Source: Anadara kagoshimensis
Lineage: Eukaryota; Mollusca; Bivalvia; Arcoida; Arcidae
Assembly: GCA_021292105.1 (NCBI GenBank)
Contig: CM037874.1
Location: 20,953,534-21,017,533, forward strand
Reading direction: 5' to 3'
Length of the DNA: 64,000 nucleotides
Under the pieces are notes generated by a model. The model did no database searches. It was not told the origin of the DNA and saw nothing but the letters and a program-made list of their open reading frames with translations. The position numbers and the translations under genes are program-made. The first letter of the stretch is position 1; each line of letters starts with the position of its first letter. Positions 5,296 through 38,705 of the stretch are shown here, one piece after another.

Positions 5296-5306
5296 TGTAT
5301 AAGATA
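5296..5306. repeat. 11-bp target site duplication, left copy
   Basis: TGTATAAGATA occurs here and, without mismatch, at 38,695-38,705. Each copy directly abuts one end of the inverted repeat pair. Confidence 0.85.
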
Positions 5307-5535
5307 CTGGTGTGAAGCTAGCCCGCAATTCTAGCCCGCAATTTTTTTAAATATCATCAAGCGAGCAATTCGATTTTATTTAAATACGGTTAATCCTAAC
5401 ATCATTCCATTTATTAATATTTGATATTTAGGGCGACCTGGTATTGCACACAACTTTTTATAAAGACCACCTGTATATTAAGACCACAGGAACCGTGATT
5501 CTAAGTGTGATTACGAAATTACGCATAGGGCGTAA
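5307..5535 (+). repeat. outer terminal inverted repeat, left (unique part)
   Basis: 229 bp that match 38,466-38,694 in reverse complement with one difference seen by eye (GCGAGC versus GCGGGC). It includes a TATAAAGACCACCTGTATAT-like stretch resembling the MITE at 38,939-39,118. Confidence 0.9.
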
Positions 5536-8500
5536 AATGCGTTTCCCCATCTAGGGCTTTTAACCACGGGTAGATCTATCCAATTGCAACATTTGGTGAA
5601 AATTTCAAGAACCCTAGAGGGGTAGAACGGGTCTTACGAGAGCTCAGAAGGACCATACCCCCCCCCCCTTTTGATATGTGATTTCGTAAGGACGTGCTAT
5701 GTTTGAAGTGGCGTACACAGAGAAAATGCATTTCCCCATCTAGGCCTTTTAACCACGGGTAGATCTATCCAATTGCAACATTTGGTGAAAATTTCAAGAA
5801 CCCTAGAGGGGTAGAACGGGTCTTACGAAAGCTCAGAAGGACCATACCCCCCTTTTGATATGTGATTTCGTAAGGACCTGCTACGTTTGAAGTGGCGTAC
5901 ACAGAGAAAATGCGTTTCCCCATCTAGGCCTTTTAACCACGAATAGATTGATCCAATTGCAACATTTGGTGAAAATTTCAAGAACCCCAGAGGGGTAGAA
6001 CGGGTCTTACGGGAGCTCAGAAGGACCATACCCCCCTTTTGATATGTGATTTCGTAAGGACCTGCTACATTTGAAGTGGCGTACACAGAGAAAATGCGTT
6101 TCCCCATCTAGGGCTTTTAACTACGGGTAGATCTATCCAATTGCAACATTTGGTGAAAATTTCAAGAACCCTAGAGGGGTAGAACGGGTCTTACGAGAGC
6201 TCAGAATGACCATTCCCCCCTTTTGATATGTGATTTCGTAAGGACCTGCTACGTTTGAAGTGGCGTACACAGAGAAAATGCGTTTCCCCATTTAAGCCTT
6301 TTAACCACGCGTAGATCTATCCAATTGCAACATTTGGTGAAAATTTCAAGAACCCTAGAGGGGTAGAACAGGTCTTACGAGAGCTCAGAAGGTTCATACC
6401 CCCCTTTTGATATGTGATTTCGTAAGGACCTGCTACGTTTGAAGTGGCGTACACAGAGAAAATGCGTTTCCCCATCTAGGCCTTTTAACCACGAGTAGAT
6501 CTATCCAATTGCAACATTTGGTGAAAATTTCAAGAACCCTAGAGGGGTAGAACAGGTCTTACGAGAGCTCAGAAGGTTCATACCCCCCTTTTGATATGTG
6601 ATTTCGTAAGGACCTGCTACGTTTGAAGTGGCGTACACAGAGAAAATGCGTTTCCCCATCTAGGCCTTTTAACCACGGGTAGATCTGTCCAATTGCAACA
6701 TTTGGTGAAAATTTCAAGAACCCTAGAGGGGTAGAACGGGTCTTACGAGAGCTCAGAAGGACCATACCCCCTTTTTGATATGTGATTTCGTAAGGACCTG
6801 CTACGTTTGAAGTGGCGTACACAGAGAAAATGCGTTTCCCATCTAGACCTTTTAACCACGGGTAGATCTGTCCAATTGCAACATTTGGTGAAAATTTCAA
6901 GAACCCTAGAGGGGTAGAACGGGTCTTACGAGAGCTCAGAAGGACCATACCCCCCTTTTGATATGTGATTTCGTAAGGACCTGCTACGTTTGAAGTGGCG
7001 TACACAGAGAAAATGCGTTTCCCCATCTAGACCTTTTAACCACGGGTAGATCTATCCAATTGCAACATTTGGTGAAAATTTCAAGAACCCTAGAGGGGTA
7101 GAACGGGTCTTACGAGAGCTCAGAAGGTTCATACCCCCTTTTGATATGTGATTTCGTAAGGACCTGCTACGTTTGAAGTGGCGTACACAGAGAAAATGCG
7201 TTTCCCCATCTAGGCCTTTTAACCACGAATAGATTGATCCAATTGCAACATTTGGTGAAAATTTCAAGAACCCTAGAGGGGTAGAACGGGTCTTACGAGA
7301 GCTCAGAAGGACCATACCCCCCTTTTGATATGTGATTTCGTAAGGACCTGCTACGTTTGAAGTGGCGTACACAGAGAAAATGCGTTTCCCCATCTAGGCC
7401 TTTTAACCACGGGTAGATCTATCCAATTGCAAATTTGGTGAAAATTTCAAGAACCCTAGAGGGGTAGAACAGGTCTTACGAGAGCTCAGAAGGTTCATAC
7501 CCCCCTTTTGATATGTGATTTCGTAAGGACCTGCTACGTTTGAAGTGGCGTACACAGAGAAAATGCGTTTCCCCATCTAGGCCTTTTAACCACGAGTAGA
7601 TCTATCCAATTGCAACATTTGGTGAAAATTTCAAGAACCCTAGAGGGGTAGAACAGGTCTTACGAGAGCTCAGAAGGTTCATACCCCCCTTTTGATATGT
7701 GATTTCGTAAGGACCTGCTACGTTTGAAGTGGCGTACACAGAGAAAATGCGTTTCCCCATCTAGGCCTTTTAACCACGAGTAGATCTATCCAATTGCAAC
7801 ATTTGGTGAAAATTTCAAGAACCCTAGAGGGGTAGAACAGGTCTTACGAGAGCTCAGAAGGTTCATACCCCCCTTTTGATATGTGATTTCGTAAGGACCT
7901 GCTACGTTTGAAGTGGCGTACACAGAGAAAATGCGTTTCCCCATCTAGGCCTTTTAACCACGGGTAGATCTGTCCAATTGCAACATTTGGTGAAAATTTC
8001 AAGAACCCTAGAGGGGTAGAACGGGTCTTACGAGTGCTCAGAAGGACCATACCCCCTTTTTGATATGTGATTTCGTAAGGACCTGCTACGTTTGAAGTGG
8101 CGTACACAGAGAAAATGCGTTTCCCCATCTAGACCTTTTAACCACGGGTAGATCTGTCCAATTGCAACATTTGGTGAAAATTTCAAGAACCCTAGAGGGG
8201 TAGAACGGGTCTTACGAGAGCTCAGAAGGACCATACCCCCCTTTTGATATGTGATTTCGTAAGGACCTGCTACGTTTGAAGTGGCGTACACAGAGAAAAT
8301 GCGTTTTCCCATCTAGGCCTTTTAACCACGAATAGATTGTTCCAATTGCAACATTTGGTGAAAATTTCAAGAACCCTAGAGGGGTAGAACGGGTCTTACG
8401 AGAGCTCAGAAGGACCATACCCCCTTTTGATATGTGATTTCGTAAGGACCTGCTATGTTTGAAGTGGCGTACACAGAGAAAATGCGTTTCCCCATCTAGG

Positions 8501-11500
8501 CCTTTTAACCACGGGTAGATGTATCCAATTGCAACATTTGGTGAAAATTTCAAGAACCCTAGAGGGGTAGAACAGGTCTTACGAGAGCTCAGAAGGTTCA
8601 TACCCCCCTTTTGATATGTGATTTCGTAAGGACCTGCTACGTTTGAAGTGGCGTACACAGAGAAAATGCGTTTCCCCATCTAGGCCTTTTAACCACGAAT
8701 AGATTGATCCAATTGCAACATTTGGTGAAAATTTCAAGAACCCTAGAGGGGTAGAACGGGTCTTACGAGAGCTCAGAAGGACCATACCCCCCTTTTGATA
8801 TGTGATTTCGTAAGGACCTGCTACATTTGAAGTGGCGTACACAGAGAAATGCGTTTCCCCATCTAGGGCTTTTAACTACGGGTAGATCTATCCAATTGCA
8901 ACATTTGGTGAAAATTTCAAGAACCCTAGAGGGGTAGAACGGGTCTTACGAGAGCTCAGAATGACCATTCCCCCCTTTTGATATGTGATTTCGTAAGGAC
9001 CTGCTACGTTTGAAGTGGCGTACACAGAGAAAATGCGTTTCCCCATTTAAGCCTTTTAACCACGCGTAGATCTATCCAATTGCAACATTTGGTGAAAATT
9101 TCAAGAACCCTAGAGGGGTAGAACAGGTTTACGAGAGCTCAGAAGGTTCATACCCCCCTTTTGATATGTGATTTCGTAAGGACCTGCTACGTTTGAAGTG
9201 GCGTACACAGAGAAAATGCGTTTCCCCATCTAGGCCTTTTAACCACGAGTAGATCTATCCAATTGCAACATTTGGTGAAAATTTCAAGAACCCTAGAGGG
9301 TAGAACAGGTCTTACGAGAGCTCAGAAGGTTCATACCCCCCTTTTGATATGTGATTTCGTAAGGACCTGCTACGTTTGAAGTGGCGTACACAGAGAAAAT
9401 GCGTTTCCCCATCTAGGCCTTTTAACCACGGGTAGATCTGTCCAATTGCAACATTTGGTGAAAATTTCAAGAACCCTAGAGGGGTAGAACGGGTCTTACG
9501 AGAGCTCAGAAGGACCATACCCCCTTTTTGATATGTGATTTCGTAAGGACCTGCTACGTTTGAAGTGGCGTACACAGAGAAAATGCGTTTCCCCATCTAG
9601 ACCTTTTAACCACGGGTAGATCTGTCCAATTGCAACATTTGGTGAAAATTTCAAGAACCCTAGAGGGGTAGAACGGGTCTTACGAGAGCTCAGAAGGACC
9701 ATACCCCCCTTTTGATATGTGATTTCGTAAGGACCTGCTACGTTTGAAGTGGCGTACACAGAGAAAATGCGTTTCCCCATCTAGACCTTTTAACCACGGG
9801 TAGTAGATCTATCCAATTGCAACATTTGGTGAAAATTTCAAGAACCCTAGAGGGGTAGAACGGGTCTTACGAGAGCTCAGAAGGTTCATACCCCTTTTGA
9901 TATGTGATTTCGTAAGGACCTGCTACGTTTGAAGTGGCGTACACAGAGAAAATGCGTTTCCCCATCTAGGCCTTTTAACCACGAATAGATTGATCCAATT
10001 GCAACATTTGGTGAAAATTTCAAGAACCCTAGAGGGGTAGAACGGGTCTTACGAGAGCTCAGAAGGACCATACCCCCCTTTTGATATGTGATTTCGTAAG
10101 GACCTGCTACGTTTGAAGTGGCGTACACAGAGAAAATGCGTTTCCCCATCTAGGCCTTTTAACCACGGGTAGATCTATCCAATTGCAACATTTGGTGAAA
10201 ATTTCAAGAACCCTAGAGGGGTAGAACAGGTCTTACGAGAGCTCAGAAGGTTCATACCCCCTTTTGATATGTGATTTCGTAAGGACCTGCTACGTTTGAA
10301 GTGGCGTACACAGAGAAAATGCGTTTCCCCATCTAGGCCTTTTAACCACGGTAGATCTATCCAATTGCAACATTTGGTGAAAATTTCAAGAACCCTAGAG
10401 GGGTAGAACGGGTCTTACGAGAGCTCAGAAGGACCATACCCCCCTTTTGATATGTGATTTCGTAGGACCTGCTACGTTTGAAGTGGCGTACACAGAGAAA
10501 ATGCGTTCCCCATCTAGGCCTTTTAACACGGTAGATCTATCCAATTGCAACATTTGGTGAAATTTCAAGAACCCTAGAGGGGTAGAACGGTCTTACGAGA
10601 GCTCAGAAGGACTACCCCCTTTTGATATGTGATTTCGTAAGGACCTGCTACGTTTGAAGTGCGTACACAGAGAAAATGCGTTTCCCCATCTAGGCCTTTT
10701 AACCACGGGTAGATCTATCCAATTGCAACATTTGGTGAAAATTTCAAGAACCCTAGAGGGGTAGAACGGGTCTTACGAGGCTCAGAAGGACCATACCCCC
10801 CTTTTGATATGTGATTTCGTAAGGACCTGCTACGTTTGAAGTAGGCGTACACAGAGAAAATGCGTTTCCCCATCTAGGCCTTTTAACCACGGGTAGATCT
10901 ATCCAATTGCAACATTTGGTGAAAATTCAAGAACCTAGAGGGGTAGACGGGTCTTACGAGAGCTCAGAAGGACCATAACCCCCCTTTTGATATGTGATTT
11001 CGTAGGACCTGCTACGTTTGAAGTAGCGTACACAGAGAAATGCGTTTCCCCATCTAGGCCTTTTAACCACGGTAGATCTATCCATTGCAACATTTGGTGA
11101 AATTTCAGAACCCTAGAGGGGTAGAACGGGTCCTTACGAGAGCTCAGAAGACCATACCCCCCTTTTGATATGTGATTTCGTAAGGACCTGCTACGTTTGA
11201 AGTAGCGTACACAGAGAAAATGCGTTTCCCCATCTAGGCCTTTTAACCACGGTAGATCTATCCAATTGCAACATTTGGTGAAAATTCAAGAACCCTAGAG
11301 GGGTAGAACGGGTCTTACGAGAGCTCAGAAGGACCATACCCCCCTTTTGATATGTGATTTCGTAAGGACCTGCTATGTTTGAAGTGGCGTACACAGAGAA
11401 AATGCGTTTCCCCATCTAGGCCTTTTAACCACGGGTAGATCTATCCAATTGCAACATTTGGTGAAAATTTCAAGAACCCTAGAGGGGTAGAACAGGTCTT

Positions 11501-14500
11501 ACGAGAGCTCAGAAGGTTCATACCCCCCTTTTGATATGTGATTTCGTAAGGACCTGCTACGTTTGAAGTGGCGTACACAGAGAAAATGCGTTTCCCCATC
11601 TAGGCCTTTTAACCACGAATAGATTGATCCAATTGCAACATTTGGTGAAAATTTCAAGAACCCTAGAGGGGTAGAACGGGTCTTACGAGAGCTCAGAAGG
11701 ACCATACCCCCTTTTGATATGTGATTTCGTAAGGACCTGCTACGTTTGAAGTGGCGTACACAGAGAAAATGCGTTTCCCCATCTAGGCCTTTTAACCACG
11801 GGTAGATCTATCCAATTGCAACATTTGGTGAAAATTTCAAGAACCCTAGAGGGGTAGAACAGGTCTTACGAGAGCTCAGAAGGTTCATACCCCCCTTTTG
11901 ATATGTGATTTCGTAAGGACCTGCTACGTTTGAAGTGGCGTACACAGAGAAAATGCGTTTCCCCATCTAGGCCTTTTAACCACGGGTAGATCTGTCCAAT
12001 TGCAACATTTGGTGAAAATTTCAAGAACCCTAGAGGGGTAGAACGGGTCTTACGAGAGCTCAGAAGGACCATACCCCCCTTTTGATATGTGATTTCGTAA
12101 GGACCTGCTACGTTTGAAGTGGCGTACACAGAGAAAATGCGTTTCCCCATCTAGGCCTTTTAACCACGAGTAGATCTATCCAATTGCAACATTTGGTGAA
12201 AATTTCAAAACCCTAGAGGGGTAGAACGGGTCTTACGAGAGCTCAGAAGGTTCATACCCCCCTTTTGATATGTGATTTCGTAAGGACCTGCTACGTTTGA
12301 AGTGGCGTACACAGAGAAAATGCGTTTCCCCATCTAGGCCTTTTAACCACGAGTAGATCTATCCAATTGCAACATTTGGTGAAAATTTCAAGAACCCTAG
12401 AGGGGTAGAACAGGTCTTACGAGAGCTCAGAAGGTTCATACCCCCCTTTTGATATGTGATTTCGTAAGGACCTGCTACGTTTGAAGTGGCGTACACAGAG
12501 AAGATGCGTTTCCCCATCTAGGCCTTTTAACCACGAGTAGATCTATCCAATTGCAACATTTGGTGAAAATTTCAAGAACCCTAGAGGGGTAGAACAGGTC
12601 TTACGAGAGCTCAGAAGGTTCATACCCCCTTTTGATATGTGATTTCGTAAGGACCTGCTACGTTTGAAGTGGCGTACACAGAGAAAATGCGTTTCCCCAT
12701 CTAGGCCTTTTAACCACGGGTAGATCTGTCCAATTGCAACATTTGGTGAAAATTTCAAGAACCCTAGAGGGGTAGAACGGGTCTTACGAGAGCTCAGAAG
12801 GACCATACCCCCTTTTTGATATGTGATTTCGTAAGGACCTGCTACGTTTGAAGTGGCGTACACAGAGAAAATGCGTTTCCCCATCTAGACCTTTTAACCA
12901 CGGGTAGATCTGTCCAATTGCAACATTTGGTGAAAATTTCAAGAACCCTAGAGGGGTAGAACGGGTCTTACGAGAGCTCAGAAGGACCATACCCCCCTTT
13001 TGATATGTGATTTCGTAAGGACCTGCTACGTTTGAAGTGGCGTACACAGAGAAAATGCGTTTCCCCATCTAGGCCTTTTAACCACGGGTAGATCTATCCA
13101 ATTGCAACATTTGGTGAAAATTCAAGAACCCTAGAGGGGTAGAACAGGTCTTACGAGAGCTCAGAAGGTTCATACCCCCCTTTTGATATGTGATTTCGTA
13201 AGGACCTGCTACGTTTGAAGTGGCGTACACAGAGAAAATGCGTTTCCCCATCTAGGCCTTTTAACCACGGGTAGATCTGTCCAATTGCAACATTTGGTGA
13301 AAATTTCAAGAACCATAGAGGGGTAGAACAGGTCTTACGAGAGCTCAGAAGGTTCATACCCCCCTTTTGATATGTGATTTCGTAAGGACCTGCTACGTTT
13401 GAAGTGGCGTACACAGAGAAAATGCGTTTCCCCATCTAGGCCTTTTAACCACGAGTAGATCTATCCAATTGCAACATTTGGTGAAAATTTCAAGAACCCT
13501 AGAGGGGTAGAACAGGTCTTACGAGAGCTCAGAAGGTTCATACCCCCCTTTTGATATGTGATTTCGTAAGGACCTGCTACGTTTGAAGTGGCGTACACAG
13601 AGAAAATGCGTTTCCCCATCTAGGCCTTTTAACACGGGTAGATCTGTCCAATTGCAACATTTGGTGAAAATTTCAAGAACCCTAGAGGGGTAGAACGGGT
13701 CTTACGAGAGCTCAGAAGGACCATACCCCCTTTTTGATATGTGATTTCGTAAGGACCTGCTACGTTTGAAGTGGCGTACACAGAGAAAATGCGTTTCCCC
13801 ATCTAGACCTTTTAACCACGGGTAGATCTGTCCAATTGCAACATTTGGTGAAAATTTCAAGAACCCTAGAGGGGTAGAACGGGTCTTACGAGAGCTCAGA
13901 AGGACCATACCCCCCTTTTGATATGTGATTTCGTAAGGACCTGCTACGTTTGAAGTGGCGTACACAGAGAAAATGCGTTTCCCCATCTAGGCCTTTTAAC
14001 CACGGGTAGATCTATCCAATTGCAACATTTGGTGAAAATTTCAAGAACCCTAGAGGGGTAGAACAGGTCTTACGAGAGCTCAGAAGGTTCATACCCCCCT
14101 TTTGATATGTGATTTCGTAAGGACCTGCTACGTTTGAAGTGGCGTACACAGAGAAAATGCGTTTCCCCATCTAGGCCTTTTAACCACGGGTAGATCTGTC
14201 CAATTGCAACATTTGGTGAAAATTTCAAGAACCCTAGAGGGGTAGAACGGGTCTTACGAGAGCTCAGAAGGACCATACCCCTTTTTGATATGTGATTTCG
14301 TAAGGACCTGCTACGTTTGAAGTGGCGTACACAGAGAAAATGCGTTTCCCCATCTAGACCTTTTAACCACGGGTAGATCTGTCCAATTGCAACATTTGGT
14401 GAAAATTTCAAGAACCCTAGAGGGGTAGAACGGGTCTTACGAGAGCTCAGAAGGACCATACCCCCTTTTGATATGTGATTTCGTAAGGACCTGCTACGTT

Positions 14501-16885
14501 TGAAGTGGCGTACACAGAGAAAATGCGTTTCCCCATCTAGGCCTTTTAACCACGGGTAGATCTATCCAATTGCAACATTTGGTGAAAATTTCAAGAACCC
14601 TAGAGGGGTAGAACAGGTCTTACGAGAGCTCAGAAGGTTCATACCCCCCTTTTGATATGTGATTTCGTAAGGACCTGCTACGTTTGAAGTGGCGTACACA
14701 GAGAAAATGCGTTTCCCCATCTAGGCCTTTTAACCACGGGTAGATCTGTCCAATTGCAACATTTGGTGAAAATTTCAAGAACCATAGAGGGGTAGAACAG
14801 GTCTTACGAGAGCTCAGAAGGTTCATACCCCCCTTTTGATATGTGATTTCGTAAGGACCTGCTACGTTTGAAGTGGCGTACACAGAGAAAATGCGTTTCC
14901 CCATCTAGGCCTTTTAACCACGAGTAGATCTATCCAATTGCAACATTTGGTGAAAATTTCAAGAACCCTAGAGGGGTAGAACAGGTCTTACGAGAGCTCA
15001 GAAGGTTCATACCCCCCTTTTGATATGTGATTTCGTAAGGACCTGCTACGTTTGAAGTGGCGTACACAGAGAAAATGCGTTTCCCCATCTAGGCCTTTTA
15101 ACCACGGGTAGATCTGTCCAATTGCAACATTTGGTGAAAATTTCAAGAACCCTAGAGGGGTAGAACGGGTCTTACGAGAGCTCAGAAGGACCATACCCCC
15201 TTTTTGATATGTGATTTCGTAAGGACCTGCTACGTTTGAAGTGGCGTACACAGAGAAAATGCGTTTCCCCATCTAGACCTTTTAACCACGGGTAGATCTG
15301 TCCAATTGCAACATTTGGTGAAAATTTCAAGAACCCTAGAGGGGTAGAACGGGTCTTACGAGAGCTCAGAAGGACCATACCCCCTTTTGATATGTGATTT
15401 CGTAAGGACCTGCTACGTTTGAAGTGGCGTACACAGAGAAAATGCGTTTCCCCATCTAGGCCTTTTAACCACGGGTAGATCTATCCAATTGCAACATTTG
15501 GTGAAAATTTCAAGAACCCTAGAGGGGTAGAACAGGTCTTACGAGAGCTCAGAAGGTTCATACCCCCCTTTTGATATGTGATTTCGTAAGGACCTGCTAC
15601 GTTTGAAGTGGCGTACACAGAGAAAATGCGTTTCCCCATCTAGGCCTTTTAACCACGGGTAGATCTGTCCAATTGCAACATTTGGTGAAAATTTCAAGAA
15701 CCATAGAGGGGTAGAACGGGTCTTACGAGAGCTCAGAAGGACCATACCCCCCTTTTGATATGTGATTTCGTAAGGACCTGCTACGTTTGAAGTGGCGTAC
15801 ACAGAGAAAATGCGTTTCCCCATCTAGGCCTTTTAACCACGGGTAGATCTGTCCAATTGCAACATTTGGTGAAAATTTCAAGAACCATAGAGGGGTAGAA
15901 CGGGTCTTACGAGAGCTCAGAAGGACCATACCCCCTTTTGATATGTGATTTCGTAAGGACCTGCTACGTTTGAAGTGGCGTACACAGAGAAAATGCGTTT
16001 CCCCATCTAGACCTTTTAACCACGGGTAGATCTATCCAATTGCAACATTTGGTGAAAATTTCAAGAACCCTAGAGGGGTAGAACGGGTCTTACGAGAGCT
16101 CAGAAGGACCATACCCCCCTTTTGATATGTGATTTCGTAAGGACCTGCTACGTTTGAAGTGGCGTACACAGAGAAAATGCGTTTCCCCATCTAGGCCTTT
16201 TAACCACGGGTAGATCTATCCAATTGCAACATTTGGTGAAAATTTCAAGAACCCTAGAGGGGTAGAACAGGTCTTACGAGAGCTCAGAAGGTTCATACCC
16301 CCCTTTTGATATGTGATTTCGTAAGGACCTGCTACGTTTGAAGTGGCGTACACAGAGAAAATGCGTTTCCCCATCTAGGCCTTTTAACCACGGGTAGATC
16401 TGTCCAATTGCAACATTTGGTGAAAATTTCAAGAACCATAGAGGGGTAGAACGGGTCTTACGAGAGCTCAGAAGGACCATACCCCCCTTTTGATATGTGA
16501 TTTCGTAAGGACCTGCTACGTTTGAAGTGGCGTACACAGAGAAAATGCGTTTCCCCATCTAGGCCTTTTAACCACGGGTAGATCTGTCCAATTGCAACAT
16601 TTGGTGAAAATTTCAAGAACCATAGAGGGGTAGAACGGGTCTTACGAGAGCTCAGAAGGACCATACCCCCCTTTTGATATGTGATTTCGTAAGGACCTGC
16701 TACGTTTGAAGTGGCGTACACAGAGAAAATGCGTTTCCCATCTAGACCTTTTAACCACGGTAGATCTATCCAATTGCAACATTTGGTGAAAATTTCAAGA
16801 ACCCTAGAGGGGTAGAACGGGTCTTACGAGAGCTCAGAAGGACCATACCCCCCTTTTGATATGTGATTTCGTAAGGACCTGCTAC
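5536..16885 (-). repeat. 184-bp satellite array, left (about 62 monomers)
   Basis: Monomer landmarks are CGTTTCCCCATCTAGGCC, AGATCTATCCAATTGC, CCCTAGAGGGGTAGAAC and GATATGTGATTTCGTAAGG. Marker-to-marker spacing is 184 bp. Variant classes alternate at the AGATCTATCC site (AGATCTGTCC, GAATAGATTGATCC, GAGTAGATC, GCGTAGATC), and this exposes higher-order structure. The series of about eight monomers beginning near 5,931 recurs in the same order near 8,690, an offset of about 2,760 bp (15 monomers). A rarer ACCATAGAGG variant at 13,311 recurs at 14,780 (8 monomers). 184 is not a multiple of 3, so the 94-residue open frames on the minus strand are by-products and not genes. Confidence 0.95.
10440..11300. 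other. indel-rich stretch of the satellite array
   Basis: Monomers here carry many single-base losses, mostly in homopolymers (CGTAGGACC for CGTAAGGACC, GCGTTCCCC, GGTGAAATTTC, GAAGTGCGTAC). Monomers on both sides are nearly clean. This looks more like uncorrected consensus error than biology. Confidence 0.6.
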
Positions 16886-18850
16886 ATTTTGGAACCCTAC
16901 ATATAAATAAGGTCCAATTTTTGGTGTTTAAAAAGCTCGTTTTAAATACTACAAAATATGGGGGAAAATAACAACCCTTAACAGCTCGTTTTGGAGATAA
17001 ATTACGTACCGTCTAAGGTACAAAACAGCACTATTAACATGTCGCATGAGACTACCGGGGTCATTATGAGCTGGCCATAGATTCGTACACACACAACACA
17101 ATTTACCGCTGTTTATATATTCAAGTACGATAGCACTACATCTTCCTTTCTAATTTTTTTTATTTAATCATCATTTTCTGGTTGTTAGGGCAACAAGTCG
17201 TTGCTATGGCAATTTTCTTGATTATTTTTTAAGTTTAGACCGTGGACGAAAATACGAAACTGTTGTATGATAAGTGGCGTACATGGAGTAAAATAAGCCC
17301 TCGGTCTTTAGGCTTGTTAGGTAATCATATTACTACGCGAATATTACAGTATTTCAAACGTAATTGCCTTTCTAAATGAAATATAATGCCCCTTTTTCCA
17401 TTCATTTGTAATTTTAACTTTTTTTAAAAAAATCTTTGTACGAAGCACATGGCCGCATATTGTGTTACGCACTATTTGGGTCCCTTGCACAGAATTACCT
17501 AAAACTGGAGCGCACGGAATATAATCATATTAAAAACCAAACTTTGGTTTGCCATTATTCTTAGCCTACACGTTTTGAGGACTTTCTTCGGGGGTCTTTG
17601 TATGGAGTAAATCTAAAAGCTATTTATGAGAAATAAGCAACGTATGTAAAGAATGTTTTGTATTTTGCATCAGTGAAATAGTATTCCAAGGAATACTAAT
17701 TCACTGAATTTTCTTGTTACGTTTCTTTTTCTTTTTTTTTTTTTTCACAAAAAAATCATATGACTTTTGGTCATTAAGATGATGCGATATTTGACGTTTT
17801 AAGGATCTGAAACTTGTAATTTGTTCAGAATGAAAGGTCAAGATCATGACTTAATTTATAACTCCGTGTTTTGTTTGATTTTACATATTTGATATACATT
17901 TGTCTATAACTTTTTATGTTTAGAAGCAATGATTTTCAACACGGAGACAAAGTCAAACTCGACAATTAAAACTGTATTGTTGATAAACTTTTAAAACTTT
18001 ATGTGAGCTTAGGCCATTTTCATGTTTTCATAGCATGGCATTCAAAACGGAGTAAATGTCAAAGCTCTGGATTAGTTTTGAAATTGTGAGCTTTTTCCTC
18101 TATATTTGTTACATTTCATTTTTGAGTTTTTACTTACACTGCTCTTTTACCATTGATCTAAGTTTAAAAGCCAAGGTACTGACCTCATTTGAAAATTAAT
18201 CCTTAAAATGCTAAATCTAGACTATATTTTTTGCAATGCTCTTCATAATCATAATAGAGTTTTATATCTTTATGAGTTATAATTATGAATATATTTGAAG
18301 CCGAGTTTAATTTAGATTTTAATTTTTGTATTTTTAAATAGACATTTTTGGTCATGTGTAATGTGTAATTTCATGACTAAGATATTGATTTTGTTTGCAT
18401 ATATATATATTGGAAAAGCCGAGACTTCGAAGCTTTTTGGTAAATTTTAAAGAAGTAAGCTAATGGAATTTAGTCGAGTTTGCAACTAAGCATATGATAC
18501 ACGCCAGGATGGATGACGCATTGCAAAAAATGAGGTTAAAGGTCACTGAATGGAAAAATATTAAATCATATTCTGGACATAATGTGCCCTTATCTTGCAA
18601 AAAACAGTTTAACTTTTATTTGCAATAATTTTGAGATAAATAGAACATATTGTATAGTGATGACTGTTTTTATAATTGCATGACGTTAAATCAACAAAAT
18701 TTTAAGATAAATTTTGCCAAAATTTTGTCCAAATACATGTAGAATAATTAATTTTTTAAACATAAATTGTGATGTCGTAAAAAATCATATCCACCAAGTT
18801 TACTATGCCAGTCTGCAAAACATATAGAAATGAATCAAAGTACTGAGAGT
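16886..18850. other. AT-rich interior of the giant element, left of the CACTA element
   Basis: Starts where the satellite breaks off after GACCTGCTACATTTTGG. No coding region, satellite or terminal repeat is seen on either strand. Confidence 0.6.
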
Positions 18851-27091: not shown

Positions 27092-27290
27092 AAGAATTCC
27101 GTCATCAGAAAATAGCACTGATCATTTTAGATGGATTAGTTTCATATAACCGATAAACGGACGAATAGACTGATTTTTGTAATTTGAACCAATTAAATTT
27201 TTTTAATGCATAAAAAGTGGGGCTTTTATTAGCGCTATAAAAGTATACAAAAATGATAATCGTGTGCTAAAAAATGTAATATTCTGAATT

Positions 27291-27292
<2 letters not shown>

Positions 27293-27350
<58 letters not shown>
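27293..27350. repeat. CT dinucleotide microsatellite
   Basis: 29 uninterrupted CT units. They produce a meaningless Arg-Glu run on the minus strand. Confidence 0.95.
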
Positions 27351-27352
<2 letters not shown>

Positions 27353-27534
27353 GTCATGTCCTTTGGTTTGAACAGTCAAATTAAATAATTCACGTATGAT
27401 TGATGAAATCACATGCTTTATGGAATCTTTCCTCGAAGAAGAATTACGCTTGGAGTATTGATAACGATCATGTTTAAAATTCAGTCTTTTTGACAAGACC
27501 GAAGTCTCTTAATTAGTATTCCTAATTAACGTCA

Positions 27535-27665
27535 TCTACTGATTTCTTTCATGCCTCAGCGATCAGGTAAATAACATTATCACTTAAGACTGGTCAGTAC
27601 TACCTGAATTCTTTCATGCCTCAGCGAACTGGCACATTACATCATCACCTGATAGCAATTTACTA
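27535..27665 (+). repeat. diverged 71-bp tandem duplication
   Basis: CTTTCATGCCTCAGCGA occurs twice, near 27,547 and 27,611, followed by similar blocks with ATTATCAC and CATCATCAC. Two copies only. Confidence 0.45.
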
Positions 27666-28159
27666 CCTGTACGCAGATAATTAACCAGTGCCACTAATTA
27701 ACTGGTCCACTGGTTGAGTGACAATTTGCGGTGTGAGAGACAATCCCCAACCCCCGCTGGACCCGCCACTGCATATTTGTTGAAATTAACTTTTTAAGTG
27801 ATGCATGTGGATATAAATGGTAGGCATATGAATGAATGAAGCAGTTTATTTTATTTTATCCACATACCTGTATCAGTTTATCATAGGTATCATGTCATAT
27901 TTTTACGTAAAAACCTGTTTTTTAAATAAAAGTTAAATAGCCCCAAAATCTTATTAAATAATTTTTTTATATTACCCTCTTTATCTATATTGAAAGCTTA
28001 AAAATTTCAAACGTAAAAAGTCCCAAAATCTCTAAAATTACTCAAAAACATCAAACTTATACTTTTTCATGATATGAAGAATAAATTAATGTTTTTAATA
28101 TTTCAAAACTTTATTAAGAAATTAAAGTATATCCTTCATAAATCTTTGTTAGCTTCAGC

Positions 28160-28181
28160 CAGAGACATATATATGTCTCTG
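28160..28181. repeat. perfect 22-bp palindrome between direct repeats
   Basis: CAGAGACATATATATGTCTC plus TG reads the same on both strands. GCTTCAGC lies on both sides (28,152-28,159 and 28,181-28,188), so it resembles a tiny insertion with an 8-bp duplication. Confidence 0.6.
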
Positions 28182-28292
28182 CTTCAGCATGGTATCAACA
28201 CGATACATCCGCGCATGCGCACACGCGTTCGTACGGAAAGCCTCTGTATGAAAGGATGTCGACTGCTGTCGAGCTAAGTGATAGATAGTTTT

Positions 28293-28735
28293 AGGTATTT
28301 TTTTCCCCTTACACAGTTTTCTTGAAAGTGCGGCTATTTGCACGTTGGTGAAAAACGACAAAATGGCGCGAATTGAAAATTTAAATTTTTTAAAATACTT
28401 TACCGTAATAATTGGACATTTTCCGGAATAATAAGTCAAAATCCGAAATAATTAGGCAAAATCCGAAATAATTAGACAAAATCCGGAATAATCAGACAGA
28501 ATCCGGAATCTTTAGATTCCGGAAAATTTACCGTAAAAAATATAGCCTTATTATTCCGGATTTTGACCGATTATTCCGGATTTTGTCTGATTATTCCGGA
28601 TTTTGCCTAATTATTTCGGATTTTGACTTATTATTCCGGATTTTCGTCTTAAAATTCCGGATTTTTCCAAACATTACGGATAGTGTCTAACTATTCCGGA
28701 ATTTCGCAATTATTCCGGTAAAACCCCTTCTAGTG
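28293..28735 (-). repeat. CACTA terminal region, right (443 bp)
   Basis: Inverted partner of 18,854-19,296, of equal length, with the same iterons, the same internal pivot and the same GAATTGCGCGCC-like inner flank in diverged form. It ends CTTCTAGTG before the ACT duplication. Confidence 0.85.
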
Positions 28736-28738
28736 ACT

Positions 28739-30100
28739 CTAGGTAGAGATTTGGCTTTTAGCTATATAAAAATATTAATATATGTTATGTTCTGAATGTT
28801 ACAATAAAACAGAAGTGAAATAAATATTTTCATCAGATAATAATATTACTAAGGACATATGTTTAATCGATATGAATCTGATGTTTTCAATGGCGTTTAA
28901 GTAATATTTAGTGCTAAGATGCTGTTGATTTTGTGACAATTGGATTACTCTGATTATCAAAATGGACATAGTAAACACTTATACACTTTTTAACGTAGTA
29001 ATATAAAAGAGAACAATTTGCAATTGAAAACATTTTTAATGCCCTATGCAAATAAGAATGTAAAACAATAAATGATGCAACAGACAAACAAGACCAGATA
29101 AATACATATCGGCACCACTGAGTATAAAATCCCGAGATTTGGAGGGGAATAGATGTTAATCACCAGTAATTCAAAGGCAAAACCCGCTTTTTTATTAAAA
29201 AGTATATAGATGATAGGACAAAAACGAGGAATAAATAAATAAGGAAATATTATACATGTACCTTCTTTTGATGTTAGTTTTCTTAATGGCTGCCATTCAT
29301 GTTTAAATAATTTCTTGAAATGTGAAGATCATCACTAGGGTTTGGTACTGAAGATCATAAAAAGGTCAAAGGTCAAATCAGTGAATTATATCATGAAATA
29401 TACATGTAAACTTTCTAATACTAGAAAATTCGGCATATTTATGAGTAATTAAATCAGAATAATATAAAACTAAGTTTTAGAAGTATATATTTTAAACAAA
29501 ATCGACCAGAATTTGCACTTGAGGTAGACCAAAGTATAGTGGATGAATCAAATATTTTATTTTCAGTGTTGATGGCATATATTGTTTAACAATCTTGATG
29601 ATATTAAAATATATATTAGTAATATTTGTTTTTATAATGCTTTGGTTTAGACATGGATTTGTATGTTTGTTATGATCACTTCATATTTATGATATGATGC
29701 AATGCTGAAAACTTTTATTCTTTTTCACTTTTTCTCGATTCTTGGAGGTTTTGACAGTTCTAATGCAACTTTTTCCTCACTACTTTCCAAAAGAAAATTT
29801 ATGTTTGAAATTGAAAATGTTGGAATTGTTCATTTTCTTACAGACATAACAACATCATTATGATCTCGTACTTGTGTTTTGACAAATATATTAACATTGA
29901 TAATGATATGTAATGATTCCTTAAACTGTCTCAGTTTTGCAGCACTAGAAGTCAGCCAAAATAGGCGCTTAGTAAGACCACTCGTGCAGTTTGTATGTAC
30001 TAATCTGTAAAAATTGGTGTAATGATGTTTTGGTGTTTTTCTCAAAATGTGGTTGATAATTTTTCGTGTCAATAACTTTAAGGCAGGAAGATATAACTTG
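28739..30100. other. AT-rich interior of the giant element
   Basis: No coding region, inverted repeat or tandem repeat that I can support. Short frames on both strands resemble nothing known. Confidence 0.5.
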
Positions 30101-30129
30101 TTTGCCTAAAAAGAAAAACCAAAACATTT

Positions 30130-31980
30130 TCTACAAAATTAGCGCCCTATATCTTTTTAAATGTAGACTATAAAATTGCATCAACTGTGTTTGCTAAACG
30201 AATTAAAACAGTCCTAGATGGCCTTATATCAGAATCACAAGTTGGTTTAATGAAAAGGAGATTTTTGGAAAATGTAACCGATTACTTATGGATCTTATTG
30301 ACAAAACAGAGAAAGCAGGTGTTCCGTGAATTTTACTTCTTTTAGATTTCAAAAAAAAGTTATGATTCACTTTACTGGTCTTTTATCAAAGTTTAAGTTT
30401 TTTTTGGTTTCGGTGATTTAATAAATAAATTGTTTTACACTTTTTATAATATTGCTAACAGTTTTATTATAAATAATGATTTTTGCTCTCATTTTCAAAA
30501 TTTAACGAGGAGTGAGTCAGGGTGATACCTTATTCCCATACATATTCATTCTAGCAGTAGAAGTACTTAGTGCAGTAATAAAATACGACGGCACTGATAC
30601 TAGTATTTATGGCATCAAGATCAAAGTCACTGAATATTTGATAAATCAATATGCTGATGACACTGTTTTGATACTTGACTATGCCCCAAAAACTCTAAAA
30701 AAGCATTAAATTTAGTAGATTACTTGTCCGTCTGTTCCGGTTTAAAACCTAATTTCGATAAAAACAAGTTATTTAGATGGGGTAAACGGGGTTGTGGTGA
30801 TAAACTTAGAACTGACAGAAAAAAAATGGAATTTAAACTTTTGGGTATAAAATATAATTTAGGAGATATAGATTTTTACCCAGAAAATTATACAGATGAA
30901 CTTGAGTCCTTTAAGAAGCTTCTGAATGATTTGTCATTCTTAAGTGCCAGATCTTCCAAATGACATAATAAATGAAATAAATAGATTGGTGTTCTCTTTC
31001 ATATGGAACATCAAAGTGAATAGAACATAACGAGATGTATTGGTTTTTTTAAATTATGATGAAGGTAGTTTAAAGGTATCCCATATCAGGTTCTTTTGTC
31101 AAAAGATTTCATGGGTACAGAAAATCCGCTCTGTCATTTACCATGGAAATGTCTGCTTCTGGATGATCTCGAAGAGTTCGAGGGTGCTAATGTTTTTAAA
31201 GATGGGTTTGCTTTGTTGATTAATAAATTCTGGTGATCGGTGATCACTGCATGGGCAAATTTACCAAATAATTACATCACAAACACAAATGATGTAATGT
31301 CACAATATCTCTGGTAAAATCCTAACATTAAAACAAATAACAAAACTTTTGGAAAATGTGGGCAAAAGAAAATATTAATTTTATAAAGGTTTTAACAAAT
31401 GATGAAGGAAATATTATGTCTTATAATGAGTTTACAGCTAAGTTTGATTTTAATATTAATAATTTAAATTATTATACCTTGATTGATACAATTGCGGAAA
31501 TCTGGAAAAGTGCAATCCAGCTACAAGAAAATCCGCTTAGAGAAGTCAGAAATAGTTTTATAACTAAATTTAAAGAAAGGAAAATAGTTTCCAAAATATT
31601 TTACATATATATCTAAAAGAAATTAGAAATTTTACACAAAAATTAGAGATTGGATGTGTTGATTAATTATGTTTTCTTGTCACCGATGAAACAAAAATTC
31701 AAGATTTCCAGTATAAAATTAAACACAATATTTATTTTACGAACAGCCGATCAACGAAATGCAAGCTTCTTGAAACTGAACTATGCAGTTTTTGTTGGGG
31801 AGTTAAAGAAACTGAACAACATTTATTTTTAAAATGTCAGTATGTAAAAAATATATTAAACATATTTTTCGATCAAGATAAAAATCAAATCCCACGTGAT
31901 TATAGAAAATGAAGTAAATAATGTTTTATTTGGACAGAAGCACAAATTAATTATTTTTGGCATTTTACATTTATGCATTT
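30130..31980 (+). mobile_element. L1/Tx1-like LINE fragment (RT and C-terminal part), decayed
   Basis: Recognisable pieces in order: VDYKIASTVFAKRIKTVLDG (about 30,165-30,225), SESQVGL, then MSQGDTLFPYIFILAVEVL (30,512 on), QYADDTVLIL with the RT catalytic YADD intact (about 30,647), SGLKPNFDKNK (30,734 on) and FKLLGIKYNLGDIDFYPENY (from about 30,832). After that comes a diverged C-terminal part with CGVKETEQHLFLKCQYV (about 31,790). The QYADD and FKLLGI patterns fit the L1/Tx1 group and not the LINE at 20-24.6 kb. The endonuclease and ORF1 are missing and many frame breaks are present. Confidence 0.7.
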
Positions 31981-33270
31981 AAATAATTAAATAGTATATC
32001 CATATATGTAGAATGTCCAATACATTTCCCCAGTACAATATTGCAATAGAAAAGATGTGTCTCTACAAACGGGTCGAAATGTATTTCATATATCAGTATT
32101 CCACGACAAGGGCACACAAAATTAGAATAAACTGGAAATTTGTTGAGGTAGACCCATACATTGAAAACATATTTTGAAATTTTAATACGTTGTACATGGG
32201 CATTAACCACTCAACATGCTAAAATATCAAGATAGGTATTCGGAATACTTAAAAAATTCTGAAGCGCCATCTGGTGGCCATTTTCACGACATAAATGATA
32301 AAAATAATAAGCTTTAATACTTTTTGCCATGCTTAGAATCCAAAAGAGTCTTGCATTTAAATTTAACATTATGTCATAAAGATAATTTGGACTAATTGAT
32401 TTTACTTCCTGACATGCGGTATTTTTCTACTGCGCCACCTATCAAGAAAGAACATTAAAATTTCAGAAAACTAAAAGTAACACCCTTTCGTTATTTTGAT
32501 GTTTTATAAAAATACGATCGCTGATTTGAACATATGTTGCGCATGAATATATAAGTTTGGAAAAATATGGGTAGTCAAGCTACTTGTTTCATAAAATTGC
32601 ATCAAAAACGAAACCAAGAAAAGAAACCTTATTCCTTACATAAGAAGTCACCATTAATGTCCTAGGATACTATTTTAAACTCAATATTTTTCGTTTGGTG
32701 TTAACAGATAAGCAAAAACAGTAATTATGAGCTATTTGGTTTGCAAAACAAAACGAATTTGAAATACCATATTATCTGTACCCCTAGCAACCGTTACCCA
32801 ATACCAACGAATTAAATTGGAAAGGGGAGTCGTATACATTGATGAAGGGTTCTTGATTCTAGGCCGCTGAAATGAAAAGCAAATACAAGAGCATAGTCAA
32901 AATTTGACACTGAGAAAAATTATTATGAAGTAATGTTTATTCAACAACCGTACCTTTGCGTCGTACTATTTTTATTTGAATAACCCTCCTCTCAAAAAAG
33001 TCACATGAAGCAGCGATATAAAACACAGTACCTCAAATTTTAAACGACGTCCTTAAATCTTTCAAATATTTAGATTTGTGCCCTCAAAAGTGTAGATCTT
33101 CCTTATTTTCGTTAAATTATACATTTTGTTCTTTAAAATAATACACAACATTGGTATTGTGAATTATAAGCTTTTGTGAATGCAGATAATTATTCTAAAT
33201 GATACGCATTAGAGCGTCCCCGCCATAATTCGGTAGGTGCCGAATACCATTTATTCGTGACGTCATTTTG
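31981..33270. other. AT-rich interior next to the right satellite array
   Basis: No gene or repeat supported. The satellite starts abruptly at CAATTGGATAGATC after ATTCGTGACGTCATTTTG. This junction does not mirror the left inner junction at 16,885. Confidence 0.5.
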
Positions 33271-36200
33271 CAATTGGATAGATCTACCCGTGGTTAAAAG
33301 GTCTAGATGGGGAAACGCATTTTCTTTGTGAACGCCACTTCAAACGTAGCAGGTCCTTACGAAATCACATATCAAAAGGGGGGTATGGTCTTTCTGAGCT
33401 CTCGGAAGACCCGTTCTACCCCTCTAGGGTTCTTGAAATTTTCACCAAATGTTGCAATTGGATCAGTCTATGCGTGGTTAAAAGGCCTAGATGGGGAAAC
33501 GCATTTTCTCTGTGTACGCCACTTCAAACGTAGCAGGTCCTTACGAAATCACATATCAAAAGGGGGGTATGGTCCTTCTGAGCTCTCGTAAGACCCGTTC
33601 TACCCCTCTAGGGTTCTTGAAATTTTCACCAAATGTTGCAATTGGATAGATCTACCCGTGGTTAAAAGGCCTAGATGGGGAAACGCATTTTCTCTGTGTA
33701 CGCCACTTCAAACGTAGCAGGTCCTTACGAAATCACATATCAAAAGGGGGGTATGGTCCTTCTGAGCTCTCGTAAGACCCGTTCTACCCCTCTAGGGTTC
33801 TTGAAATTTTCACCAAGTGTTGCAATTGGATAGATCTACCCGTGGTTAAAAGGCCTAGATGGGGAAACGCATTTTCTCTGTGTACGCCACTTCAAACGCA
33901 GCAGGTCCTTACGAATTCACATATCAAAAGGGGGGTATGGTCCTTCTGAGCTCTCGGAAGACCCGTTCTGCCCCTCTAGGGTTCTTGAAATTTTCACCAA
34001 ATGTTGCAATTGAATAGATCTACCCGTGGTTAAAAGGCCTAGATGGGGAAACGCATTTTCTCTGTGTACGCCACTTCAAACGTAGCAGGTCCTTACGAAA
34101 TCACATATCAAAAGGGGGGTATGGTCCTTCTGAGCTCTCGTAAGACCCGTTCTACCCTCTAGGGTTCTTGAAATTTTCACCAAATGTTGCAATTGGATAG
34201 ATCTACGCGTGGTTAAAAGGCTTAAATGGGGAAACGCATTTTCTGTGTATGCCACTTCAAACGTAGCAGGTCCTTACGAAATCACATATCAAAAGGGGGG
34301 TATGGTCCTTCTGAGCTCTCGTAAGACCCGTTCTACCCCTCTAGGGTTCTTGAAATTTTCACCAAATGTTGCAATTGGATAGATCTACCCGTGGTTAAAA
34401 GCCCTAGATGGGGAAACGCATTTTCTCTGTGTACGCCACTTCAAACGCAGCAGGTTCTTACGAAATCACATATCAAAAGGGGGGTATGGTCCTTCTGAGC
34501 TCTCGGAAGACCCGTTCTTCCCCTCTAGGGTTCTTGAAATTTTCACCAAATGTTGCAATTGAATAGATCTACCCGTGGTTAAAAGGCCTAGATGGGGAAA
34601 CGCATTTTCTCTGTGTACGCCACTTCAAACGCAGCAGGTCCTTACGGAATCACATATCAAAAGGGGGGTATGGTCCTTCTGAGCTCTCGGAAGATCCGTT
34701 CTTCCCCTCTAGGGTTCTTGAAATTTTCACCAAATGTTGCAATTGAATAGATCTACCCGTGGTTAAAAGGCCTAGATGGGGAAACGCATTTTCTCTGTGT
34801 ACGCCACTTCAAACGTAGCAGGTCCTTACGAAATCACATATCAAAAGGGGGGTATGGTCCTTCTGAGCTCTCGTAAGACCCGTTCTACCCCTCTAGGGTT
34901 CTTGAAATTTTCACCAAATGTTGCAATTGGATCAATCTATTCGTGGTTAAAAGGCCTAGATGGGGAAACGCATTTTTTCTGTGTACGCCACTTCAAACGT
35001 AGCAGGTCCTTACGAAATCACATATCAAAAGGGGGGTATGAACCTTCTGAGCTCTCGTAACACCCGTTCTACCCCTCTAGGGTTCTTGAAATTTTCACCA
35101 AATGTTGCAATTGGATAGATCTACCCGTGTTTAAAAGGCCTAGATGGGGAAACGCATTTTCTTTGTGAACGCCACTTCAAACGTAGCAGGTCCTTACGAA
35201 ATCACATATCAAAAGGGGGGTATGGTCTTTCTGAGCTCTCGGAAGACCCGTTCTACCCCTCTAGGGTTCTTGAAATTTTCACCAAATGTTGCAATTGGAT
35301 CAGTCTATGCGTGGTTAAAAGGCCTAGATGGGGAAACGCATTTTCTCTGTGTACGCCACTTCAAACGTAGCAGGTCCTTACGAAATCACATATCAAAAGG
35401 GGGGTATGGTCCTTCTGAGCTCTCGTAAGACCCGTTCTACCCCTCTAGGGTTCTTGAAATTTTCACCAAATGTTGCAATTGGATAGATCTACCCGTGGTT
35501 AAAAGGCCTAGATGGGGAAACGCATTTTCTCTGTGTACGCCACTTCAAACGTAGCAGGTCCTTACGAAATCACATATCAAAAGGGGGGTATGGTCCTTCT
35601 GAGCTCTCGTAAGACCCGTTCTACCCCTCTAGGGTTCTTGAAATTTTCACCAAGTGTTGCAATTGGATAGATCTACCCGTGGTTAAAAGGCCTAGATGGG
35701 GAAACGCATTTTCTCTGTGTACGCCACTTCAAACGCAGCAGGTCCTTACGAATTCACATATCAAAAGGGGGGTATGGTCCTTCTGAGCTCTCGGAAGACC
35801 CGTTCTGCCCCTCTAGGGTTCTTGAAATTTTCACCAAATGTTGCAATTGAATAGATCTACCCGTGGTTAAAAGGCCTAGATGGGGAAACGCATTTTCTCT
35901 GTGTACGCCACTTCAAACGTAGCAGGTCCTTACGAAATCACATATCAAAAGGGGGGTATGGTCCTTCTGAGCTCTCGTAAGACCCGTTCTACCCCTCTAG
36001 GGTTCTTGAAATTTTCACCAAATGTTGCAATTGGATAGATCTACGCGTGGTTAAAAGGCCTAAATGGGGAAACGCATTTTCTCTGTGTATGCCACTTCAA
36101 ACATAGCAGATCCTTACGAAATCACATATCAAAAGGGGGGTATGGTCCTTCTGAGCTCTCGTAAGACCCGTTCTACCCCTCTAGGGTTCTTGAAATTTTC

Positions 36201-38465
36201 ACCAAATGTTGCAATTGGATAGATCTACCCGTGGTTAAAAGGCCTAGATGGGGAAACGCATTTTCTTTGTGAACGCCACTTCAAACGTAGCAGGTCCTTA
36301 CGAAATCACATATCAAAAGGGGGGTATGGTCCTTCTGAGCTCTCGGAAGACCCGTTCTACCCCTCTAGGGTTCTTGAACTTTTCACCAAATGTTGCAATT
36401 GGATCAGTCTATGCGTGGTTAAAAGGCCTAGATGGGGAAACGCATTTTCTCTGTGTACGCCACTTCAAACGTAGCAGGTCCTTACGAAATCACATATCAA
36501 AAGGGGGGTATGAACCTTCTGAGCTCTCGTAAGACCCGTTCTACCCCTCTAGGGTTCTTGAAATTTTCACCAAATGTTGCAATTGGATAGATCTACCCGT
36601 GGTTAAAAGGCCTAGATGGGGAAACGCATTTTCTCTGTGTACGCCACTTCAAACGTAGCAGGTCCTTACGAAATCACATATCAAAAGGGGGGTATGGTCC
36701 TTCTGAGCTCTCGTAAGACCCGTTCTACCCCTCTAGGGTTCTTGAAATTTTCACCAAGTGTTGCAATTGGATAGATCTACCCGTGGTTAAAAGGCCTAGA
36801 TGGGGAAACGCATTTTCTCTGTGTACGCCACTTCAAACGCAGCAGGTCCTTACGAATTCACATATCAAAAGGGGGGTATGGTCCTTCTGAGCTCTCGGAA
36901 GACCCGTTCTACCCCTCTAGGGTTCTTGAAATTTTCACCAAATGTTGCAATTGAATAGATCTACCCGTGGTTAAAAGGCCTAGATGGGGAAACGCATTTT
37001 CTCTGTGTACGCCACTTCAAACGTAGCAGGTCCTTACGAAATCACATATCAAAAGGGGGGTATGGTCCTTCTGAGCTCTCGTAAGACCCGTTCTACCCCT
37101 CTAGGGTTCTTGAAATTTTCACCAAATGTTGCAATTGGATAGATCTACGCGTGGTTAAAAGGCTTAAATGGGGAAACGCATTTTCTGTGTATGCCACTTC
37201 AAACGTAGCAGGTCCTTACGAAATCACATATCAAAAGGGGGGTATGGTCCTTCTGAGCTCTCGTAAGACCCGTTCTACCCCTCTAGGGTTCTTGAAATTT
37301 TCACCAAATGTTGCAATTGGATATATCTACCCGTGGTTAAAAGGCCTAAATGGGGAAACGCATTTTCTCTGTGTATGCCACTTCAAACATAGCAGATCCT
37401 TACGAAATCACATATCAAAAGGGGTATGGTCCTTCTGAGCTCTCGTAAGACCCGTTCTACCCCTCTAGGGTTCTTGAAATTTTCACCAAATGTTGCAATT
37501 GGATAGATCTACCCGTGGTTAAAAGCCCTAGATGGGGAAACGCATTTTCTCTGTGTACGCCACTTCAAACGTAGCAGGTCCTTACGAAATCACATATCAA
37601 AAGGGGGGTATGGTCCTTCTGAGCTCTCGTAAGACCCGTTCTACCCCTCTAGGGTTCTTGAAATTTTCACCAAATGTTGCAATTGGATATATCTACCCGT
37701 GGTTAAAAGGCCTAAATGGGGAAACGCATTTTCTCTGTGTATGCCACTTCAAACATAGCAGGTCCTTACGAAATCACATATCAAAAGGGGGGTATGGTCC
37801 TTCTGAGCTCTCGTAAGACCCGTTCTACCCCTCTAGGGTTCTTGAAATTTTCACCAAATGTTGCAATTGGATAGATCTACGCGTGGTTAAAAGGCCTAGA
37901 TGGGGAAACGCATTTTCTCTGTGTACGCCACTTCAAACGTAGCAGGTCCTTACGAAATCACATATCAAAAGGGGGGTATGGTCCTTCTGAGCTCTCGTAA
38001 GACCCGTTCTACCCCTCTAGGGTTCTTGAAATTTTCACCAAATGTTGCAATTGGATATATCTACCCGTGGTTAAAAGGCCTAAATGGGGAAACGCATTTT
38101 CTCTGTGTATGCCACTTCAAACATAGCAGGTCCTTACGAAATCACATATCAAAAGGGGGGTATGGTCCTTCTGAGCTCTCGTAAGACCCGTTCTACCCCT
38201 CTAGGGTTCTTGAAATTTTCACCAAATGTTGCAATTGGATAGATCTACCCGTGGTTAAAAGGCCTAGATGGGAAACGCATTTTCTCTGTGTACGCCACTT
38301 CAAACATAGCAGGTCCTTACGAAATCACATATCAAAAGGGGGGTATGGTCCTTCTGAGCTCTCGTAAGACCCGTTCTACCCCTCTAGGGTTCTTGAAATT
38401 TTCACCAAATGTTGCAATTTGATCGATCTATCCGTGGTTAAAAGCCCTAGATGGGGAAACGCATT
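33271..38465 (+). repeat. 184-bp satellite array, right (about 28 monomers)
   Basis: The same monomer as the left array in reverse complement. Marker variants recur as blocks: the TTTCTTTGTGAACGCC monomer near 33,315 is repeated near 35,153 and 36,257, and CACCAAGTGTTGC at 33,811 recurs at 35,648 and 36,752. The offsets are 1,837 bp (10 monomers) and 1,104 bp (6 monomers). Open frames on the plus strand are by-products of the repeat. Confidence 0.95.
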
Positions 38466-38694
38466 TTACGCCCTATGCGTAATTTCGTAATCACACTTAG
38501 AATCACGGTTCCTGTGGTCTTAATATACAGGTGGTCTTTATAAAAAGTTGTGTGCAATACCAGGTCGCCCTAAATATCAAATATTAATAAATGGAATGAT
38601 GTTAGGATTAACCGTATTTAAATAAAATCGAATTGCCCGCTTGATGATATTTAAAAAAATTGCGGGCTAGAATTGCGGGCTAGCTTCACACCAG
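38466..38694 (-). repeat. outer terminal inverted repeat, right (unique part)
   Basis: Inverted partner of 5,307-5,535, of equal length, with one difference seen. It ends GCTTCACACCAG and abuts the 11-bp duplication. Confidence 0.9.
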
Positions 38695-38705
38695 TGTATA
38701 AGATA
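38695..38705. repeat. 11-bp target site duplication, right copy
   Basis: TGTATAAGATA, identical to 5,296-5,306. Confidence 0.85.

Follow-up and report, generated by a model that had tools for sequence, protein, structure and literature searches.

Can a satellite array belong to the ends of a transposon and be moved with them? The question is raised by a stretch of 64,000 nucleotides from the bivalve Anadara kagoshimensis (here called the window; G000:C18:20953534-21017533, in a genome of 1.115 Gb and 36 contigs), in which an element of 33,390 bp at 5306-38695 has inverted termini and, directly inside each of them, an array of the same 184-bp satellite. The best explanation of the results given below is a non-autonomous foldback-type DNA transposon family with satellite arms, most likely of the Mutator/Rehavkus kind, and we regard this account as probable.

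The element in the window

The first base of the element is A and its last base is T, and it lies between two copies of the 9-bp target-site duplication GTATAAGAT at 5297-5305 and 38696-38704. A first, sequence-only reading of the window had seen an 11-bp duplication. The perfect direct repeat behind that reading, TGTATAAGATA, does stand at both ends and occurs at two places only in the window (5296 and 38695), but a duplication of 11 bp must be rejected, as the apparent 11 bp consist of nine duplicated bases together with one element base and one chance base on each side. The borders were placed in this way because A precedes CTGG at 41 of 42 distinct tips of the family and because 27 of 34 pairs of flanks fit a duplication of exactly 9 bp.

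The outer terminal inverted repeats (TIRs) occupy 5306-5533 on the forward strand, beginning ACTGGTGTGAAG, and 38468-38695 on the reverse strand; both were delimited by end comparison and by the reading of whole copies, with genome-wide tip matches in addition for the left one. They show the single difference noticed earlier (5364, among 240 compared bases), and within the borders given here their length is 228 bp instead of 229 bp. Inside them the same monomer forms two arrays in opposite orientations, as had been described: a left arm of 61.9 copies (about 62 monomers) at 5534-16889 on the forward strand and a right arm of 28.3 copies (about 28 monomers) at 33268-38467 on the reverse strand, both with 96% matches in Tandem Repeats Finder and both recovered when whole copies were read.

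Tips and duplications across the genome

The outermost 20 bases of the element, with at most one mismatch, match the genome 296 times (133 + 163), and the reversed control gives no match, so that the other copies predicted by the sequence-only reading do exist. Places are listed for at least 100 of the 296, all of them exact and running from C1 to early C9, and one more on C1 brings the number to 101. Among the tips listed there are 30 convergent pairs, spaced 5.6-28.3 kb apart with a median of 19.3 kb, and four further neighbouring tips within 60 kb that have another arrangement. Both flanks were read for 34 pairs, namely 29 of the 30 convergent ones (C8:47.19M was left out), the window copy, and two pairs each from C14 and C19. 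With the borders at A...T, an exact 9-bp duplication is present in 27 of these 34 pairs and all 27 differ from one another, while the best of 1,122 non-cognate pairings of left and right flanks reached seven of nine bases, once. The duplications are 70% A+T and have no fixed motif. That copies elsewhere would have duplications of their own was thus correct, at 9 bp, and tips, differing duplications and dispersed copies together bear out that the two-armed unit is a mobile element.

A motif, ACAGGCCTGTACTGTA, was noticed in the outer flanks of loci L001-L008 and L029-L058 and counted after it had been picked for this reason: with up to three substitutions it occurs in 11 of 33 distinct 1-kb flanks pointing at the element, with the motif end 13-41 bp from the tip. 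Further out it is found in 2-5 flanks per 100-bp bin, and in the reverse direction within 100 bp in two flanks, which suggests that insertion favours sites next to a widespread repeat.

Whole copies and their common core

Seven copies were read from end to end. The lengths in bp of the element, left arm and right arm are 33,390, 11,356 and 5,196 in the window copy; 13,581, 2,486 and 2,740 in C9:15.68M; 15,515, 3,104 and 3,603 in C19:20.29M; 11,195, 1,269 and 1,338 in C1:25.59M; 24,794, 2,135 and 10,096 in C14:20.57M; and 31,987, 15,387 and 8,276 in C19:29.74M; in the smallest copy, C14:54.85M (1,426, 604 and 351), the arms abut without a core. Opposed arms of the 184-bp satellite lie inside both tips in all seven and measure 0.35-15.4 kb each, which upholds the proposal that the satellite belongs to the transposon ends and that its arrays vary in length from copy to copy. 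The two TIRs within one copy have 1-7 base differences and at most 10 gap columns.

The satellite might instead be an independent tandem repeat, and the tips small elements that had jumped into the borders of arrays or been captured there. Some tips have no satellite that could be found (0 bp at L034, L036, L045, L051 and L052), and monomer and tip have only words of 7-9 bases in common, so that there is no sign of a monomer derived from the tip. This explanation is nevertheless highly improbable, as the join between array and tip falls at the same place and the arms are opposed in seven of seven whole copies, the duplication lies outside them in six of seven, and the junctions of arms and core are identical in four copies.

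These four copies are C9:15.68M, C14:20.57M, C19:20.29M and C19:29.74M, which agree at both junction points; the window copy and C1:25.59M have one junction region in common with them and differ at the other. The core itself is common to six whole copies (all except C14:54.85M) and to five that were partly read (L023-L027), mostly at 88-99% identity; L028, which also entered this comparison, is a duplicate of the window copy. In the window the interior (16890-33267) is this core, recognised by comparison with the other copies and split into a left, non-coding part at 16890-18853 and a right part at 28736-33267, the latter lacking about 2.3 kb that adjoins the right arm in C19:20.29M. Core frames are short, and the middle of the element has no apparent coding capacity.

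The core of the window copy is split by a nested CACTA-type element of 9,882 bp (18854-28735) that begins with CACTAG, ends with CTAGTG and has made a 3-bp duplication, ACT; the uninterrupted site is present in the core of C19:20.29M. All frames with Exo_endo_phos and RVT_1 domains, one RVT_1 match being below the cut-off, lie within the nested element, and these degraded frames of the long interspersed nuclear element (LINE) type therefore do not belong to the core of the family. That the window copy contains a transposase was rejected: four of the ten frames of at least 100 aa between 16 and 34 kb were scanned and gave LINE endonuclease and reverse transcriptase domains or nothing. The nested element has inverted ends of its own (18853-19296 and 28293-28736, 94%), which contain 20-bp tandem repeats. 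Outside the element, the window holds a tandem unit of about 1.6 kb with internal repeats of 159-165 bp at 49357-60919, adjoining a run of 1,000 N at 48357-49356, and a 59-bp tandem array of at least 52 copies at 60917-64000 that continues past the window end.

Turnover of the satellite arms

From the 14 arms of the seven whole copies 360 monomers were cut, with partial units and those outside 171-199 bases dropped. Arm size ranges from about 2 to about 85 monomers. The mean distance between monomers, taken over monomer pairs and hence weighted towards large arms, is 1.5% inside a single arm, 2.3% from one arm of an element to the other and 2.4% from element to element. For 314 of the 360 monomers the nearest neighbour lies in the same arm (ties scored as own arm). 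One 184-base monomer accounts for 135 of the 360; the four elements that contain it lie on C9, C14 and C19. In the right arm of C14:20.57M, 53 of 54 monomers are alike in aligned columns and 52 are letter-for-letter the commonest type. The outermost monomer behaves in another way: in 11 of 13 arms it is nearer to its counterparts at the outer edge of other arms than to the arm it belongs to; the right arm of C19:20.29M ties and that of C14:20.57M is contrary. The pattern fits a tip and an edge monomer that would be passed on together while turnover, with recent bursts, goes on in the array behind them.

Divergent relatives and short copies

The 30 tips L029-L058, taken by order of place, allow satellite content to be set beside divergence. 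At least 590 bp of satellite was found in all 17 tips whose TIR is at least 95% identical to that of the window, and in two of the 13 below 95%; satellite was measured in the 1.3 kb inside the tip, and identity to the window, with gaps scored as differences, is not a clean measure of age. From these sequence comparisons, the arrays may have grown in one young subfamily or may shrink with age. The shortest relatives, L051 and L052, are 222-bp copies with ends of 204 bp and 18 bp in an 8-bp duplication, AATATATT, at two places whose flanks are 95% alike. As these copies sit in a short duplication, arrays appear not to be needed for movement, and the outer tips seem sufficient for it. At L103 with L045 (C3:28510588-28516607), frames behind a 180-bp TIR piece resemble, as judged by eye, exons for a membrane protein of the host, of acyltransferase type.

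Transposase and classification

By structure the family is of the foldback type: all seven whole copies have long inverted ends with tandem repeats, an architecture like that of Tetris, and the middle is the non-coding one described above. Membership of the Mutator/Rehavkus group is what we infer from the 9-bp duplication in 27 of 34 pairs, which lies within the 8-11 bp of Mutator and which, combined with satellite-like repeats at inverted ends, also corresponds to Rehavkus. The two assignments differ in standing because the search for a transposase, aimed genome-wide at the domain PF10551 of Mutator-like elements (MULEs), linked none to the tip. The first guess of a Mutator-like or foldback element thus holds for the structure and is consistent with Mutator in the duplications and in the long inverted ends with tandem repeats.

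PF10551 gave 76 matches, 75 of which were compared with the 128 placed tips of the 296; the remaining one is on C10, which has no placed tip. Several observations weigh against the account given at the outset. No transposase was found near the tips, the nearest of the 75 matches being 97.7 kb from the closest of the 128 placed tips, and none was found among the ten scanned of the 17 core frames of at least 60 aa in one copy (C19:29.74M), the only match there being a weak Sina_TRAF below the cut-off. No partner lies within 60 kb of 41 of the 101 listed tips, and no duplication was found in seven of the 34 pairs (C1:25.59M, C3:68.60M, C5:40.62M, C5:58.28M, C7:17.48M, C8:9.13M and C8:52.71M). One of the 27 duplications, that of C3:1.81M, is nearly all T and less informative. 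Finally, no empty allele was seen, and the copies are known from assembled sequence alone.

A repeated MULE, of which the copy at C6:47.9M was opened, was rejected as a relative; its 25-bp ends are unlike the tip, and with up to three mismatches allowed there was no match to the tip's first 16 bases. In the 4.5 kb inwards of L034 and L045 no transposase was seen by eye, and no family search was run there.

An element of the same kind could also be moved by the transposase of another superfamily, for example a P/Galileo-like or Merlin-like one, as foldback structure arises in several lineages. That no Mutator-type transposase was linked to the tip by the PF10551 search leaves room for this, as does the partial account of Tetris, which allows for an independent evolution of foldback structure and for exceptions to Mutator (PMC4079207). 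The 9-bp duplications, on the other hand, fit both the 8-11 bp of Mutator and the 9 bp of Rehavkus (PMC6446971, from the part available), and we consider another superfamily unlikely. A trans-acting transposase of the Mutator/Rehavkus type is probably responsible.

The seven pairs without duplication bear on a different explanation, in which the lengths of arrays, their runs of identical monomers and certain chimeric copies would be products of the assembly, that is, collapsed or misjoined arrays and retained haplotypes. In two of these pairs one flank recurs, at 99.4-99.5%, beside a copy on a different chromosome: what stands to the right of C3:68.60M stands to the left of C2:49.69M for 1.5 kb (two mismatches, seven gaps), and what stands to the left of C7:17.48M stands to the right of C6:28.17M for 800 bp (no mismatch, four gaps). 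Such sharing can result from exchange between arms, from a segmental duplication or from a join made in the assembly. In addition, a second, inverted copy of the window element's right half lies, together with its outer flank, 0.5 Mb away at C18:21466632-21477631 (L008, L028); over 10,030 columns it shows 15 mismatches and 39 gap bases, and the flank has no mismatch and three gaps in 1,562 columns, which suggests a recent duplication or a retained haplotype. Against an assembly origin, the 27 pairs with a duplication join the correct two flanks, which is not expected from misjoined arrays, and satellite lies inside the tips at copy after copy. Seven whole copies with the same two arms and the right-half duplicate speak against a misassembly of the overall plan of the window copy, and we judge this explanation of lengths and chimeras to be quite unlikely.

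A model of movement and array growth

For a non-autonomous foldback-type family the following sequence can be proposed. A transposase made elsewhere would recognise the tip, move the whole two-armed unit, probably by cut-and-paste, and insert it with a 9-bp stagger. Between tip and core, the 184-bp array would turn over mainly within its own arm, a pattern directly visible in the monomers, and sometimes in near-identical bursts, through a process such as slippage in replication, unequal exchange, rolling-circle copying or the repair of gaps left by excision. As the unit moves whole with its arrays, transposition would spread kilobase satellite arrays over many chromosomes, and exchange between the long arms of different copies may have left some copies with mismatched flanks. 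It is conceivable, if doubtful, that the satellite grows as a consequence of the transposition cycle, with repair or copying of the inverted arms amplifying the 184-bp unit in bursts, a satellite that is wholly transposon-borne, and arms that recombine and carry flanks between chromosomes; if this were true, the family would both make and spread a satellite. A jump can place a ready-made satellite array at a new chromosomal site. Duplications, TIR pairs and the nested insertion order the copies, which makes it possible to trace from one copy to the next how the arrays grow, amplify in bursts and spread.

Comparison with known systems

To our knowledge, Helitrons make no 9-bp target-site duplication. 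Bivalve Helitron-borne satellites such as Cg170 form arrays that vary in monomer number (PMC5139131, PMC8268682; both as available in part), and the satellites inspected in the portion of PMC8268682 at hand reach 48 monomers. The element described here resembles them as a transposon-carried satellite array of variable length, but Helitrons carry one internal array without inverted satellite arms. The same source describes CgiSat28 of Crassostrea gigas, a 182-bp satellite on all chromosomes with a Repbase match to DNA/MuDR (PMC8268682); the available part does not describe the element that carries it, and the likeness to the 184-bp satellite is one of description only. Nothing on a '184 bp' satellite in scallop was found in the open-licence literature.

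Closer in architecture is Tetris of Drosophila virilis, in which the inverted ends consist of an outer domain and tandem repeats of about 220 bp around a non-coding middle, with duplications of 8-10 bp; in the portion of its description available, no autonomous copy was found, placement in Mutator rests on duplication size, described allelic copies have three and four repeats, and separate repeat arrays of kilobase size are reported (PMC4079207). The ends of the present family are built on the same plan, but Tetris TIRs measure at most 1,735 bp (PMC4079207) and arms here reach 15.4 kb inside the element.

The Rehavkus group combines a 9-bp duplication with a minisatellite (PMC6446971) and is defined by a PHD-finger transposase (PMC6446971, PMC10218199), according to the available parts of these sources. 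Rehavkus-1_TC of Tribolium castaneum, a dispersed element of 9.5 kb, has arrays of the 164-bp TCsat23 in its inverted termini, mostly of five and eight monomers and in that assembly never more than nine, with longer reads hoped for (PMC10218199, in part). By description only, our family is like it in its satellite arrays in inverted termini, its dispersal and the 9-bp duplication of the Rehavkus group.

The earlier statement that no element with such arrays is known therefore needs to be divided: satellite in inverted termini has been described (Tetris, PMC4079207; Rehavkus-1_TC, PMC10218199), but the arrays described there are short, and excerpts of the open-licence literature hold no inverted-end satellite arms of the size found here. 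Whether short arrays within transposons are the source of satellites is still debated in the papers of the field, as far as their available parts go, and where the Tribolium arrays stop at nine monomers (PMC10218199), arms in one genome here run from about 2 to 85. The architecture is already known; what is new is the size of the arrays, with one arm of about 85 monomers against at most nine in the 9.5-kb Rehavkus-1_TC.

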